This document shows, in pieces, positions 3,240 through 33,140 of a stretch of DNA of 39,204 bases (position 1 is the stretch's first letter; each line of letters begins with the position of its first letter). The position numbers and the translations under genes are program-made. Location of the stretch: NCBI GenBank assembly GCA_902774325.1, contig CACYIC010000020.1, positions 1 to 39,204 on the forward strand. The letters are read 5' to 3'. Origin of the DNA: an uncultured Ruminococcus sp. (GTDB lineage: Bacteria; Bacillota; Clostridia; Oscillospirales; Acutalibacteraceae). The notes under the pieces are model-generated. The model saw only the letters and a program-made list of their open reading frames with translations, was not told the origin of the DNA and did no database searches.

Positions 3240-4262
3240 CTATTCTATAAAATCTAAGGTATCGATTTGTTCGAGCTCCGAAATATTGTAGGAGCTCTGT
3301 TTTTCTGTCGTTTTCTTTTCGGCAGCGCTTTCCGCTTCCCGAAGCTCAGTCGGGCTTTTTATGCCGGAGGCGTTCCAGCGCTTCAATATCCCGTCTATAT
3401 AATTGAACTTCATCGTTCCCTTGGAATCGACGCAGCGCTCATAAGCCTCGCGGAGCATTTCGGGAGAAAAGCGCCACTCCCCTATCCATTTCGCGCAGTA
3501 CTCAAGCTGCTTCTTCGTGGGAGAGCCGGCGTTCTTGATTCCGAACGCCGATGCAACGATAGAATACTGCTTGCTGCTCTGACGCGCAAGACGTATTTTA
3601 TTCTCGGCTGCCTCGACAGAAAAGATCCCCTCGTCCGCCCAGCTCACCCCGAGCTTTTCTATAGTCCGCATATTGCCCTTGTCGATGCTGATCGCGTATT
3701 GTATAAGCATCAGAATCACATCCAGCGGCAGTCCGCAGGTGTCCTTGAGCATCAGCAGAGTAGCAATATCCGAATTTGAAAGCACCTTTCCCAAGGCGCC
3801 CTGAGCCTCCTGAACCAAAAACTGAAGCTCGCTGTCGACCGCAAGCCTCTGCGCCGTAAAAACATAATCCGGCTTTTGCGGTCTGGTGACGACAAAATGC
3901 TGCTTTGCCTCGTTGACCTCGCGGGAGATATCCTCTGCCGTGGGCTTCTGAGGCTCGGGCTCGGGCTTTTCCCCGGGAGCCTCCCGCTGATCCTCGGAGT
4001 CGCTCACGGGAGATAGAACGGAGCCGTTTCTTTGCAGGATACCCATTGAGACCCAATAATCGAGAGCCTCGGGAATATCGGTGACGTTCACTCCCGTCGC
4101 CTTGGAAATATCATTTTCGTCAAAAGGAATATCGGCGCTGCGGAGCACATATAAAAGCACCTTGAGCTTTACGCCGTCCGAAAATTTAAGCCCCTCGTCA
4201 ACGACCTTTGAGGGAACGGCAAAAACGGAGCTCCACGCGCCGAGGTTAATCTGTACCGACAT
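3240..4262 (-). CDS. dnaD: DnaD-domain replication initiation/primosome protein
   Basis: This protein acts with DnaI in primosome assembly at the origin and at stalled forks. The N-terminal winged-helix part (about residues 1-80) includes LKVLLYVLRSADIPFDENDI and DIPEALDYWVSMGIL. A charged linker follows (about 85-115). Two DnaB_2-type helical domains (about 145-310) end with FNYIDGILKRWNASGI, the family's Y-x3-I-L-x2-W signature. At 340 residues it is longer than Bacillus DnaD and looks like the two-domain form usual in Clostridia. GGGAAG lies at a normal distance from the ATG at 4262. Its leader contains a 33-bp copy of the dispersed repeat described below. Confidence 0.86.
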   Translation of the reverse strand: MSVQINLGAWSSVFAVPSKVVDEGLKFSDGVKLKVLLYVLRSADIPFDENDISKATGVNVTDIPEALDYWVSMGILQRNGSVLSPVSDSEDQREAPGEKPEPEPQKPTAEDISREVNEAKQHFVVTRPQKPDYVFTAQRLAVDSELQFLVQEAQGALGKVLSNSDIATLLMLKDTCGLPLDVILMLIQYAISIDKGNMRTIEKLGVSWADEGIFSVEAAENKIRLARQSSKQYSIVASAFGIKNAGSPTKKQLEYCAKWIGEWRFSPEMLREAYERCVDSKGTMKFNYIDGILKRWNASGIKSPTELREAESAAEKKTTEKQSSYNISELEQIDTLDFIE

Positions 4263-4289: not shown

Positions 4290-4322
4290 GGCGGCGCCGA
4301 GCCTGAACCGCGCGGTATCGCC
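4290..4322 (-). repeat. Dispersed inverted-end repeat, copy A (33 bp)
   Basis: On the minus strand it opens GGCGATACCGCGCGGTTCAG and closes GGCGCCGCC, matching the ends of copies C and F. The flanking bases on the plus strand are TAAA on the left and TGAA on the right, exactly as for copy C. It is shortened and keeps little but the ends. It lies in the dnaD leader, between the probable promoter and the ribosome site. Confidence 0.6.
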
Positions 4323-4433: not shown

Positions 4434-4459
4434 GGCAGTACCGCATGATTTGCGGCGCC
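4434..4459 (+). repeat. Dispersed repeat, solo end (copy B)
   Basis: GGCAGTACCGCATGATTTGC followed by GGCGCC matches the conserved end of the repeat family. TTCA precedes it, as in copies A and C read from the same end. It sits 4 bp beyond the prfB stop codon, between the gene and its terminator. No partner end was found. Confidence 0.5.
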
Positions 4460-5748: not shown

Positions 5749-6774
5749 ATGGAATTTACTCAATACAAATGTCCGGTTTGTAACAAAAGCTTCGAGAAAG
5801 GCGACGATATCGTTGTCTGCCCGGAATGCGGCGCGCCGCACCACAGAAGCTGCTATGAACTGGAGAACAAGTGCTTCTATGAAGCCGAACACGCCGAGGG
5901 CTTTTCCTTTGAGCAGGAGCAGAAAAGCGGCGGCGAAGCTGAGGAAAACTCTGACGGCGGCGAAAAAGCCTCGGTCGGGACGCGCTGCCCGCGCTGCGGG
6001 ACCGACAACGAGCCCGGAGCTCTTTTCTGCAATCACTGCGGTCTGCCTCTAATGCAAAACGGCGCCGAGGCGGGTGAAGCTCCGGAGCGGGAGGACCAGA
6101 CAGGAAGGGCGAACCCCTTCGGCTTTGACAGCTCGCAGAATCCTTTCTTTGATCCTATGGCGGGACTCAAGCCCGATGAAGAGCTCAGCCCGGGCATCAA
6201 GGTCAGTGAGACAGCGAAATTCGTCGGAAAGAGAACTCAGTACTTTTTGCTTGTTTTCAAGCGCATCAAGGACTTCGGAAGGTCAAGATTCAATTTCGCG
6301 TCGTTTTTACTCCCGGGGGTCTATCTGCTTTACCGCAAGATGACCGTTCCCGGACTCATCATCTCCCTTCTGCTCATAGCCTGCAATATCCTGTCGGCGT
6401 ACATCTATATGACGCCCGCGTGGAGCACCTGCTACAACGATCTGCTGAGCTATGTGCGCAGCGGAGGCACGCTCAGCATCGGCTCAGGGATAGAGCTCAC
6501 CGCCGAAATGATGTTTGTCTATCTTCCGGTCATGCTCACCGGGATCCGCTATGTATTTATGATACTCTGCGGACTGCTGACAAACCGCTTTTATTTCAGG
6601 CATTGCAGAAAAAAAATCGAAACCATCAAAAACGAAGAAAAAGAAAATATCAATGAAAAGCTGGAACGCGCCGGCGGAGTCAATCTGGGACTCGCGATAA
6701 GTCTGGGCGCGGCTACCCTGATTGTCGGATATGTTTGCAACTTTATGTTGATGCAATCGGGTATTCTTTTCTGA
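5749..6774 (+). CDS. Prokaryotic RING-type zinc-finger membrane protein
   Basis: The protein has 341 residues. Its N-terminal zinc module has Cys8, Cys11, Cys24, Cys27, a His pair at 31-32, Cys35 and Cys42 (CPVC...CPECGAPHHRSC). This matches the Prok-RING family, related in fold to eukaryotic RING fingers. A charged linker and a second zinc ribbon (RCPRCGTDNEPGALFCNHCG, near 85-105) follow. The second half has about four hydrophobic segments: FLLPGVYLLY, LIISLLLIACNIL, a pair around MMFVYLPVMLTG, and a C-terminal LAISLGAATLIVGYVCNF. The start is set by GGAGG (5739-5743), which overlaps the alternative ATG at 5737. Function is unknown; it is probably a membrane protein with a cytoplasmic zinc head. 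galU follows 21 bases downstream on the same strand. Confidence 0.75.
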   Translation: MEFTQYKCPVCNKSFEKGDDIVVCPECGAPHHRSCYELENKCFYEAEHAEGFSFEQEQKSGGEAEENSDGGEKASVGTRCPRCGTDNEPGALFCNHCGLPLMQNGAEAGEAPEREDQTGRANPFGFDSSQNPFFDPMAGLKPDEELSPGIKVSETAKFVGKRTQYFLLVFKRIKDFGRSRFNFASFLLPGVYLLYRKMTVPGLIISLLLIACNILSAYIYMTPAWSTCYNDLLSYVRSGGTLSIGSGIELTAEMMFVYLPVMLTGIRYVFMILCGLLTNRFYFRHCRKKIETIKNEEKENINEKLERAGGVNLGLAISLGAATLIVGYVCNFMLMQSGILF

Positions 6775-11674: not shown

Positions 11675-11756
11675 GGCAAAAGGCACTATTCGCGGCGCAC
11701 GCCTTGCCGGTATAACCTGCTGTGCGATCCGTACACCCGAATCAAGCGGTATTGCC
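11675..11756 (-). repeat. Dispersed inverted-end repeat, copy C (82 bp)
   Basis: Read on the minus strand it opens GGCAATACCGCTTGATTCGG and closes GTGCCTTTTGCC. Its first 30 bases match copy F at 25 positions, and its right arm shares the core GGCGYGCGCCGCGAATWGTG with copy F. The two ends are imperfect inverted repeats of each other. Flanks on the plus strand are TAAA (11671-11674) and TGAA (11757-11760). It lies inside the V-ATPase operon between subunits C and I and should be transcribed as a folded RNA. Confidence 0.75.
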
Positions 11757-14502: not shown

Positions 14503-15096
14503 ATGGAGAAAAAAGGTAAAACCGATAATTTTTTGAAGGCTATAAAAAAGCACGCAAAGGCGCAGAAAAACGCCATGAAATCAGAGGTTTCCCTGCTCAA
14601 GGAAGAAAAAATCAAAAGAGCCGAGAACAAGGCGAAGCGCGACAGCGAAAAGCTTATCAGGGATAAGCTTGAGGAAAAGCGCAACGAGCAAACGGCTATC
14701 CTCGCGCAAAAGACCCGCGAGGGACAGCGCCGGATCTTCTTTGAGCGCGCGAGGATGACCGACGAGGTGTTTAATCTCGCCTCAAAGAAGCTTACCGAAT
14801 ACGCGAAAACCGAAGAATACAGAAGGAAGCTGATCGACAGCGCGAAAGAGATCGCAAAGCTGTTTGAGAGCAACGACTGCGTGCTCTATATCAGCGAAAA
14901 GGACATGGAGCAGTCAGATGAGATCAAAGCCGTATTCGAGGGCAATACCGAGATAAAAGCCGACCGCAGGATAAAGCTGGGCGGCATCATCGGTTATTGC
15001 GACGCGATGGGAATCGTCGCCGACGAGACCCTCGACAACAAGCTGCTCATGCAGAGAGAATGGTTCATTGAGAACGCCGATCTCTCAGTACTCTGA
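14503..15096 (+). CDS. ntpE: V-type ATP synthase subunit E
   Basis: Subunit E is the long helix of the peripheral stalk, partnering the G/H subunit encoded first in the operon. Of 197 residues, the N-terminal 90 are a lysine- and glutamate-rich coiled coil (KHAKAQKNAMKSEVSLLKEE and following). The C-terminal half is globular and ends with KLGGIIGYCDAMGIVADETL and LLMQREWFIEN, the expected subunit E ending. GAGAGG precedes the ATG. The stop codon is directly followed by a solo end of the dispersed repeat. Confidence 0.87.
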   Translation: MEKKGKTDNFLKAIKKHAKAQKNAMKSEVSLLKEEKIKRAENKAKRDSEKLIRDKLEEKRNEQTAILAQKTREGQRRIFFERARMTDEVFNLASKKLTEYAKTEEYRRKLIDSAKEIAKLFESNDCVLYISEKDMEQSDEIKAVFEGNTEIKADRRIKLGGIIGYCDAMGIVADETLDNKLLMQREWFIENADLSVL

Positions 15097-15117
15097 GGCA
15101 ACACCGCACAATTCGCG
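15097..15117 (+). repeat. Dispersed repeat, solo end (copy D)
   Basis: GGCAACACCGCACAATTCGC begins at the base after the subunit E stop codon. It closely matches the inverted right end of copy F. No second end is visible before subunit A, so this is a remnant or a solo end. It sets the spacing before the subunit A ribosome site. Confidence 0.6.
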
Positions 15118-25110: not shown

Positions 25111-26481
25111 ATGCTTTATGATTTTCTGATCGCCGACTCTGATGAAAACGAGCCGCGCTACAGACAAATATATTATTCGGTGCGCCGTCATATCGAGGAC
25201 GGAAGCCTCAAAAAAAATACCCGTCTGCCGTCCGTGCGCGAGCTGTGCGCGGAGCTTGGGATTTCCAAAACCACGGTTCTGGCGGCTTACGAGCAGCTTT
25301 CCGCGGAGGGCTATATTTACTCTCTGCCGAAGAAGGGATATTTCGTCGCGGCTGACTTCAACAGCCGTCCGCCCGAAAGTCCGAGCGTAAATGAAGCCTC
25401 CGCTCAAAAGAGCCGTCAGTATTATGAATATGATTTCAGCGGCAAGAGCATAGACAGCGGGATAGTCGATCTGAGCCATTGGCGCAAATGCGTAAAGGAT
25501 GTTATTAACCGCGACTATCTGCTGACCTCCTACGGCGATCCCCAGGGCGAGGAGGCGCTCAGAAAAGCGCTGCAGCAATACGCAGTTGGCACCAGAAGCG
25601 TCAATTCCACCCCCGAAAATATAGTCATAGGAGCGGGAACCCAGCCCGTTCTGTCGATACTTTGCGCCCTCCTCGGAAAAGAACTGAAAATCGCCGTAGC
25701 CGGCGGCGCGTTCGTTCAGTCGGAATTTGTATTCCGAAGTTACGGATATGAGGTCGAATACTTTGAAAGCGACAGATTCGGAGCGCGCGTTGACTCTCTC
25801 GATAGAATCAAGCCCGACCTTGTGCTGATAAATCCGAATTACTGCGAGGAAAGCGGCGAAAGCATGCCGGTTACCCGCAGGCTGGAGCTCATCCGAGGCG
25901 CAAAGCTCAACAATGCCCTTATTATCGAGGACGATTACAACGGCGAGCTGCGCTACAGCACCCATCCCATGCCGTGCGTCCAGCATTACGATACGGAAAA
26001 CACCGTTTATCTCGGCTCATTCTCAAAGGTCCTGCTTCCTTCGGTAAGGCTGAGCTATATGGTTCTGCCGCGCGCTCTGACCGAAAAATACAGAGAGATC
26101 AAAAAATTCACGAATCAAACCGCCTCAAAGACCGAACAGCTCGCCCTCGCGGAGTATATCAACAGCCGAAAGATCGACGTTCATCTGCGCAAGGCGAGGC
26201 GCGTATATCTCGAAAAAAGCCGTTTGATGCTAAAGAGCATTCGGAAGTATTTTCCCGATTGGGAGATCAAATTCAACGAAACCTCGCTGTACTGCACCCT
26301 AAAGCCTCCCTTTCAGCTCGACGCGGAGGCGCTGAGCGGAGCGCTTGAGGAAAACTCTATAAGGATAATGGCGCGGAGCGCCGGGAAAAACGAGCTTTCT
26401 CTAAGCTTTTCGGGCATCTCATCTCAAAAAACAGAGGGCGGTATCGAAAAGCTCGCAAAAATCATCGGCGATACCGCATGA
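25111..26481 (+). CDS. MocR-type transcriptional regulator (GntR helix-turn-helix fused to aminotransferase fold)
   Basis: This regulator combines an N-terminal GntR winged helix (about 15-80: YRQIYYSVRRHIEDGSLKKN, RLPSVRELCAELGISKTTVL) with a fold-type I aminotransferase domain that senses PLP or an amine ligand. The cofactor-binding elements are intact: IIEDDYNGELRY (Asp) and YLGSFSKVLLPSVRL with the Schiff-base lysine (about 308). The 456 residues are a normal length. Known members include PdxR and GabR, but no pdx or gab gene is adjacent. The divergent murD-peptidase operon, which includes a PLP enzyme, or the gene itself, is the likeliest target by position. The last codons (GDTA-stop) come from a solo end of the dispersed repeat. 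Confidence 0.9.
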   Translation: MLYDFLIADSDENEPRYRQIYYSVRRHIEDGSLKKNTRLPSVRELCAELGISKTTVLAAYEQLSAEGYIYSLPKKGYFVAADFNSRPPESPSVNEASAQKSRQYYEYDFSGKSIDSGIVDLSHWRKCVKDVINRDYLLTSYGDPQGEEALRKALQQYAVGTRSVNSTPENIVIGAGTQPVLSILCALLGKELKIAVAGGAFVQSEFVFRSYGYEVEYFESDRFGARVDSLDRIKPDLVLINPNYCEESGESMPVTRRLELIRGAKLNNALIIEDDYNGELRYSTHPMPCVQHYDTENTVYLGSFSKVLLPSVRLSYMVLPRALTEKYREIKKFTNQTASKTEQLALAEYINSRKIDVHLRKARRVYLEKSRLMLKSIRKYFPDWEIKFNETSLYCTLKPPFQLDAEALSGALEENSIRIMARSAGKNELSLSFSGISSQKTEGGIEKLAKIIGDTA

Positions 26482-26484
26482 TTC
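26467..26484 (+). repeat. Dispersed repeat, solo end (copy E) forming a gene end
   Basis: GGCGATACCGCATGATTC matches the conserved end of the repeat family at almost every base. The regulator gene uses it for its last four codons and its TGA stop (26479-26481). It is short, so chance similarity cannot be fully excluded. Confidence 0.45.
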
Positions 26485-32985: not shown

Positions 32986-33019
32986 AATCCTACAGCGAAA
33001 GGCTGCCACCGGCGGTAAA

Positions 33020-33128
33020 GGCAATACCTCATAATTCAGGTGTGCGGATTGCGAAGCAATATTTTTTTGGCAGACTGACAGAATAAAATTCAGGCAAAGG
33101 CGCGCGCCGCGAATTGTGCGGCGTCGCC
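33020..33128 (+). repeat. Dispersed inverted-end repeat, copy F (109 bp, best preserved)
   Basis: The left end is GGCAATACCTCATAATTCAG and the right end is CGCGAATTGTGCGGCGTCGC followed by C. The inverted right end, GGCGACGCCGCACAATTCGC, matches the left end at about 14 of 20 positions. TAAA stands directly on both sides (33016-33019 and 33129-33132), as in a 4-bp target duplication. The interior has ATTGCGAAGCAAT, a small hairpin, and no coding frame. It lies between the S1-domain gene and rmuC. Confidence 0.75.
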
Positions 33129-33140
33129 TAAATATCCGAG

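Follow-up and report, generated by a model that had tools for sequence, protein, structure and literature searches.

Repeats of the ERIC/RU and Correia type are mobile intergenic palindromes of 100–170 bp, as is the repeat family described here; their ends and target are not known to be related to those of this family. According to one account, RU repeats measure 103–168 bp (PMC2759123). Type II MITEs are described as elements shorter than 500 bp with terminal inverted repeats, direct repeats and transcripts that form stem-loops (PMC10969869). In the same description their similarity to insertion sequences is confined to the ends, many copies are partial, and an AT-rich composition is typical of prokaryotic MITEs though not required (PMC10969869). 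QMITE1 and QMITE2 of Coxiella burnetii and Chunjie of Geobacter grade from full-length to very short copies and have better-kept ends (PMC10969869), as is also the case here. QMITE2 is set apart by its description, which gives duplications of 7–9 bp (PMC10969869).

The present family resembles type II MITEs in its length (35–221 bp), its inverted ends of about 18 bp, its fixed 4-bp target duplication and its many dispersed copies. Autonomous elements with the same ends exist, and the similarity to them is limited to the ends. Unlike typical MITEs the family is not AT-rich; pooled G+C of the two-ended copies is 57.2% in the genome under study (n=28) and 47.0% in other genomes (n=114). It also differs from type II MITEs as described above in that several interior types are found on the same ends, and in the strand-polarised hairpin of types 1, 2 and 4. 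With the IS5_4 insertion sequences (NF033581) it shares a 12-bp terminal core and, in the two of these with a 4-bp duplication (TTAA or CTAA), the length of the duplication. Unlike an IS5 family insertion sequence, the elements in the window have no transposase gene, and internal matches are weak and short. The kind of element, a type II MITE, is well known; the family is new. A search of the literature found neither the family nor its ends nor the link to a transposase. None of the full texts searched contained any of the four 18-base ends; 10 papers contained one of two shorter 11-base strings, in contexts that were unrelated by title.

Repeats in the window

The window comprises a complete contig (C20), 39,204 nucleotides long, from an uncultured Ruminococcus sp., whose assembled genome has 2.11 Mb in 74 contigs and is 91% complete. 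The consensus end was written as GGCRAYACCGCAYAATTCGC (20 bases). The end core is GGCRRYRCCGCRY, and the end is about 18 bp long in the mini-elements. The P end is GGCAATACCGCATAATTC, then AGGTGTGCGGATTGC, and the Q end is GGCAACACCGCACAATTC, then GCGGCGCGCGCC. The window holds the following features.

4290–4322, minus strand: element A, two-ended short remnant of 33 bp; flanks TAAA/TGAA; beside a DnaB_2-domain gene
4434–4459, plus strand: element B, readable as a remnant of 26 bp, one end of which is good; flanks TTCA/GACA; beside a release-factor gene (PCRF and RF-1 domains)
11675–11756, minus strand: element C, 82 bp with both ends, running P to Q on the minus strand; flanks TAAA/TGAA; between two V-type ATPase subunit genes
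15097–15116, plus strand: element D, solo end, exact consensus match; directly after the stop codon of ORF 14503–15096 and before a gene for an ATP synthase alpha/beta-type (V/A type) subunit
26467–26484, plus strand: element E, solo end that shares bases with the final codons and stop of ORF 25111–26481
33016–33019: left target duplication of F, TAAA (4 bp)
33020–33128, plus strand: element F, two-ended, internally deleted, 109 bp, P left and Q right; flanked by genes for an S1-domain protein and an RmuC-family protein
33129–33132: right target duplication of F, TAAA (4 bp)

At up to 3 mismatches the consensus matched the window 6 times, versus a mean of 0.02 and a largest value of 1 in 100 shuffles. 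The only exact match is at D (15097). The right end of F (33109–33128, minus strand) has 1 mismatch, B, C, E and the left end of F have 3, and A has 5. All six repeat places that a preliminary description had listed in these 39 kb are real. Their placement between genes or at gene ends also holds, with E as the gene-end case. The stop and final codons of ORF 25111–26481 were apparently supplied by solo end E. The same description had called the repeats GC-rich, which is right only in part: G+C is 79% in A, 65% in B, 59% in C and 50% in F, and 51.4% in the window. It had seen no transposase in view, and the window elements, of 109 bp at most, indeed carry no transposase gene.

Copy number and anatomy in the genome

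Element F was used as a DNA query against its own genome. It matched 54 places at E≤1, several of which were two halves of one copy, and the matches elsewhere in the genome were 80–94% identical. A relaxed end pattern (18 bases, up to 2 mismatches) gave 161 matches in the genome, compared with 6 for the control, in which the pattern was read backwards. A genome-wide search had been proposed at the outset, with finding only a few matches taken as the sign of chance similarity; the ends proved to be abundant.

Copies that kept both ends form a size series in this genome: full copies of 158–167 bp, then 152, 106–109, 77–91, 49–54, 44 and 35 bp. A 29-bp form can be read by eye in locus L209. Two-ended copies range from 35 to 167 bp in this genome and from 35 to 221 bp elsewhere. 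The unequal length of the interiors, already remarked upon for C and F, is accounted for by internal deletions of a form of about 160 bp. F, C and A are short forms, and B, D and E are remnants or solo ends. One 91-bp copy (L029:1435–1525) has an interior built of tandem units of about 21 bases (CATAATTCGGGTTTGCGCCGT).

Target duplications

For the flank test, element boundaries were set at GGC...GCC. In other genomes 81/114 non-redundant two-ended copies have identical 4-bp direct flanks, versus a shuffled mean of 25.2 and a maximum of 36 in 2000 shuffles. In the window's genome this was the case for 10/28 copies (shuffled mean 1.7, maximum 7); these statistics use a stricter set of 28 pairs, since some of the 48 lenient pairs look false. 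Flanks of 3 and 5 bases showed no excess of identity over shuffled pairs. TTAA is the commonest duplicated target (40/81). Palindromic 4-mers of the TTAA or TATA type account for 47/81 identical flanks in other genomes and 3/10 in the window's genome. The remaining identical flanks, 34 and 7 respectively, are direct, and inverted-only identity was seen in no copy. A perfect duplication is absent in 18/28 copies of the window's genome, as would be expected if the copies were old.

The site of F was compared with its orthologs. For this, 120 genomes were searched and the loci of 19 relatives fetched. The S1-domain and RmuC-family genes that flank F are adjacent in 15/19 relatives; the other 4 gave no alignment on both sides within 600 bases. 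No end was seen, at up to 4 mismatches, in the spacer of any of the 15 relatives with the gene pair, and the spacer measures 47–249 bases in these, versus 255 with F. The element-free spacers were compared whole, divergence being too high for a base-by-base alignment of the empty site. The alignment of flanks suggested in the preliminary description thus revealed exact 4-bp duplications and, for F, orthologous spacers free of the element. In one relative (L295) the spacer in which the window's genome has F holds another short repeat, TTTGCGGTCTATTTTCCGCAATACTTCG, which is found in 3/333 loci (L075:38–65 and 3639–3666, L122:38–65, L295:2080–2107).

Insertion sequences with the same ends

A search with PF01609 (DDE_Tnp_1) gave no match in the window's genome. 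In the genus, matches were found in 18/60 genomes at 26 loci, which were rejected as a source because 0/26 were two-ended for the family ends. Locus L273 has a degraded IS5-like remnant beside a one-mismatch end, and a 44-residue open piece of it, used as a query, matched 6/295 genomes of the order. Three loci from this search (L274, L276, L277) have family ends on both sides. The proteins P0001 (L276) and P0002 (L274) scored 320 and 332 bits to NF033581 transpos_IS5_4, for which the cut-off is 140, and also match PF01609 and PF05598.

Matches of the P0001 type at E≤1e-50 were found in 15/394 genomes of the order. Among 47 genomes with end matches, the P0001 search gave a match in 4, two of them close. 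An intact element of 1126 bp with flanks TTAA/TTAA (L283) lies in genome G381, which also holds mini-element L137. The genome with type 3 interiors, G062, has a truncated gene that closely matches P0001. No transposase of the P0001 clade was found in the window's genome, which is 91% complete.

Using the 12-bp core, 5/25 loci are two-ended insertion sequences of 1020–1150 bp (L311, L313, L314, L283 and L322; L311, L313 and L314 are the same places as L276, L277 and L274). The transposase is 67–100% identical to P0001 at 17 loci: both ends are present at 5 of these, a single end is nearby at 9, and 3 lack ends. At 8 loci it is 43–48% identical, and 0 of these are two-ended. As judged from the sequences of these 25 loci, the 12-bp ends track the transposase clade. 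A full mini-element in G366 (L285:2062–2222) adjoins a different, distant transposase gene that is 33–34% identical to P0001. The 4-bp flanks are identical in 2/5 insertion sequences (CTAA/CTAA in L274/L314, TTAA/TTAA in L283) and differ at one or two bases in L311, L313 and L322. The reading frame is open in L274 (L314), L276 (L311) and L283; L313 and L322 have stops in frame. L322 is located in the taxonomic family to which the window's genome belongs. The preliminary description had proposed looking for a full-length element with the same ends and a transposase, and five such two-ended IS5_4 elements exist in related genomes.

The mini-elements were compared with the five insertion sequences by blastn (up to 6 copies per type). 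They match at the terminal 12–24 bases, with exact identity over at most 16. Internal matches are short and weak (best E 0.008 among the matches listed), and the insertion sequences do not in general have the inner bases (AATTC) of the 18-bp end. Likeness only at the terminal 12–24 bases is the pattern of type II MITEs. Exact 4-bp duplications together with insertion sequences having the same ends argue for DNA transposition. On these results the elements are very probably type II MITEs with ends that an IS5-family DDE transposase (IS5_4 clade) recognises in trans. The initial term "MITE-like" was correct and can be put more strongly in view of the inverted ends, the exact 4-bp duplications, the absence of F from 15 orthologous spacers, the excess of ends (161 vs 6) and the IS5_4 elements with the same ends.

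In the mechanism that we propose, the IS5_4 transposase would cut at the GGC...GCC ends. Insertion would be at AT-rich 4-bp sites, with TTAA the commonest, and would duplicate the site. The copies here would have been mobilised by this transposase or by a lost close relative. Once inserted, copies would lose internal sequence or one side, giving rise to the short and solo forms. The window's genome, 91% complete, yielded no transposase of the clade, so its copies are probably relics that are no longer mobile. The missing transposase, and the P0001 matches in no more than 4 of the 47 genomes with end matches, are weak counter-evidence to the proposed mechanism, since MAGs tend to lose repeats.

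Distribution and interior types

A full-length copy (L007) used as query at E≤0.001 matched 14/59 genomes including its own. The related genomes, in which a search had also been proposed, thus yielded copies in 14/36 of the same genus and in 0/23 from other genera of the order. An exact 19-base scan with one genome per species gave at least 108 stretches; the taxa among the scan matches listed are Ruminococcus, Ruminococcaceae, Oscillospiraceae, other Clostridia MAGs, Subdoligranulum and Gemmiger formicilis. A phage or plasmid origin was also considered: in viral_contigs 6 stretches match, and the plasmid sequences searched gave no match. Full-length relatives with 69.5–72.5% identity occur in four unannotated phage records from human faeces (MT835489.1, MT835885.1, MT835480.1 and MT836531.1, here H1–H4).

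Type 1, the type of the window's genome, is mostly 161 bp long. Type 2 is 159 bp long; counting partial matches, it was found 41 times in G059, 41 times in G060 and 46 times in G061. Type 3, of 157 bp, is found in G062, where 37 matches to a type 2 query cover the end only, among the matches listed. Type 4, of 172 bp, comprises L115 and L137 and has the same ends as the other types. Copies resembling type 4 also occur in a strain of Gemmiger formicilis. L191, which was binned with type 4, is 161 bp long and aligns with type 1 along its length. When types 1, 2 and 3 were compared by blastn (up to 6 copies each), they had mainly the terminal 17–19 bases in common, with a few longer or short internal matches, in both cases among the matches listed. 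L137 of type 4 can be aligned by blastn with type 1 over most of its length. On this likeness, the interior types may be far-diverged branches and not independent inventions.

Types 2 and 3 were also considered as the ends of longer elements, as copies lie at contig ends. This idea was dropped once full copies of 157–162 bp were read. One type 3 copy of 218 bp (L184:1508–1725) is about 61 bases longer than the others owing to an insertion in the hairpin. Copies lie within about 50–100 bases of the end of a contig or fetched stretch in L064, L069, L072, L081, L083, L094, L100, L112, L118, L141, L149, L151, L155 and L162. Copies at contig ends are expected if near-identical copies break assemblies, which suggests recent activity in the genomes concerned.

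Gene context

Tandem genes flank 68 of the 142 two-ended copies, divergent genes 24 and convergent genes 17; 19 are at locus edges and 14 are far from an ORF call. By the same crude ORF calls, 34/142 overlap an ORF by at least half. Type 2 copies were oriented by their interior, by which one of them, L117, has its ends swapped. In tandem context, 30 type 1 copies are opposite to transcription and 15 along it (p 0.036 for type 1 alone). Type 2 has 3 opposite and 6 along (p 0.13 with type 1 included). A further repeat, which contains TCGGGCAGAYAGGTT, occurs in 4/333 loci (L006:1456–1470, L022:1577–1616, L075:4715–4729 and 5910–5924, L232:2204–2218), in several cases near a mini-element. Its two inverted copies in L022 suggest a hairpin.

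Hairpin and strand polarity

The full-length copies are imperfect hairpins over their whole length. To count pairs, each copy was aligned with its own reverse complement, all mismatches being scored alike. On the P to Q strand, type 1 (n=35) has 247 G.T vs 48 A.C pairs, type 2 (n=10) has 51 vs 23 and the type 4 bin (n=3) has 17 vs 2. Type 3 (n=5), for which the choice of strand is arbitrary, has 9 vs 19. The mean RNA folding energy of the P to Q strand versus its complement is −83.4 vs −57.6 kcal/mol in type 1, with P to Q stabler in 32/32 copies, −82.0 vs −56.7 kcal/mol in type 2 (10/10) and −83.9 vs −56.8 kcal/mol in the type 4 bin (3/3). Type 3 has almost no polarity (−58.4 vs −56.5 kcal/mol, 3/5). 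The early prediction that the RNA should fold is correct for full-length copies, and the folding depends strongly on the strand in types 1, 2 and 4.

Alignment A1 and the counts of departures from the consensus leave out 3/35 type 1 copies (longer than 163 bases). In the A1 structure, 21 pairs changed on both sides, compared with 12.5 after shuffling. Both-side changes make up 108 cells vs 43.0 in shuffles, 0/500 of which were as high; the shuffles ignore kinship among the copies. Structures slid along A1 gave 6–11 pairs and 10–27 cells. A large share of the covariation signal reflects the replacement of entire apical stems by others that are likewise self-complementary. Most of the polarity is already present in the consensus, with 8 G.T to 1 A.C. 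Departures from the consensus are 58 G.T to 40 A.C in type 1 (p 0.085), 16 to 8 in type 2 and 3 to 8 in type 3. A C-to-T bias on the P to Q strand was rejected as the cause of the G.U polarity, as paired sites have 54 C>T vs 83 G>A, which is the wrong direction.

A cruciform, or a transposase acting on double strands, should favour neither strand. Polarity, if real, would therefore need RNA or single-stranded DNA. The retention of length and of a G.U-rich hairpin while apical stems are swapped would suggest that selection acts on a single strand, of RNA or DNA. We tentatively raise the possibility, which we hold to be rather doubtful, that mini-elements of types 1, 2 and 4, besides being mobilised by a DNA transposase, are preserved in the form of a single-stranded hairpin, at a length of about 160–172.

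We wondered whether the repeats could instead be a structured RNA, such as a terminator, attenuator or small RNA, dispersed because it is useful to the host. The folding advantage of one strand in every copy of types 1 and 2 and the type 4 bin, and the both-side changes that no shuffle equalled, would fit such an RNA. However, the 4-bp duplications and the insertion sequences with the same ends favour DNA transposition. Rfam gave no family at gathering score, the one sub-threshold match being Pistol (16.3 bits vs 34.5). Type 3 is nearly without polarity, the departures of type 1 are weakly polarised, and gene orientation is mixed, with type 1 mostly opposite and type 2 mostly along transcription. 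Taken together, a host RNA is an improbable explanation of the family.

Discussion

Repeats moved by another kind of enzyme were also considered, namely REP-like palindromes moved by a RAYT (single-strand Y1) transposase. The short forms of 29–50 bp are imperfect palindromes and mostly extragenic, as such repeats would be. Target duplications are not expected for REPs, and here they are exactly 4 bp. Furthermore, the short forms derive by deletion from a long element with two ends, and it is a DDE transposase that bears the same ends. A REP origin is thus very improbable. Chance similarity of intergenic hairpins has practically no standing, being ruled out by the 161 vs 6 ends in the genome, the 6 vs 0.02 matches in the window and the copies of 80–94% identity.

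The proposed recognition of these MITEs in trans by an IS5_4 transposase names a likely mobiliser for a repeat that is abundant in Ruminococcaceae/Oscillospiraceae genomes from rumen and gut. The repeats are often found at the contig ends of MAGs and at gene ends, and in the window they also lie within a run of V-type ATPase genes. If the hairpin is indeed maintained, one of its strands would be selected beyond hitch-hiking, for example for effects on host messages or for control of transposition. The occurrence of the same ends on several interiors, together with a polarised hairpin, offers a natural series in which selection on the interiors of MITEs can be tested.
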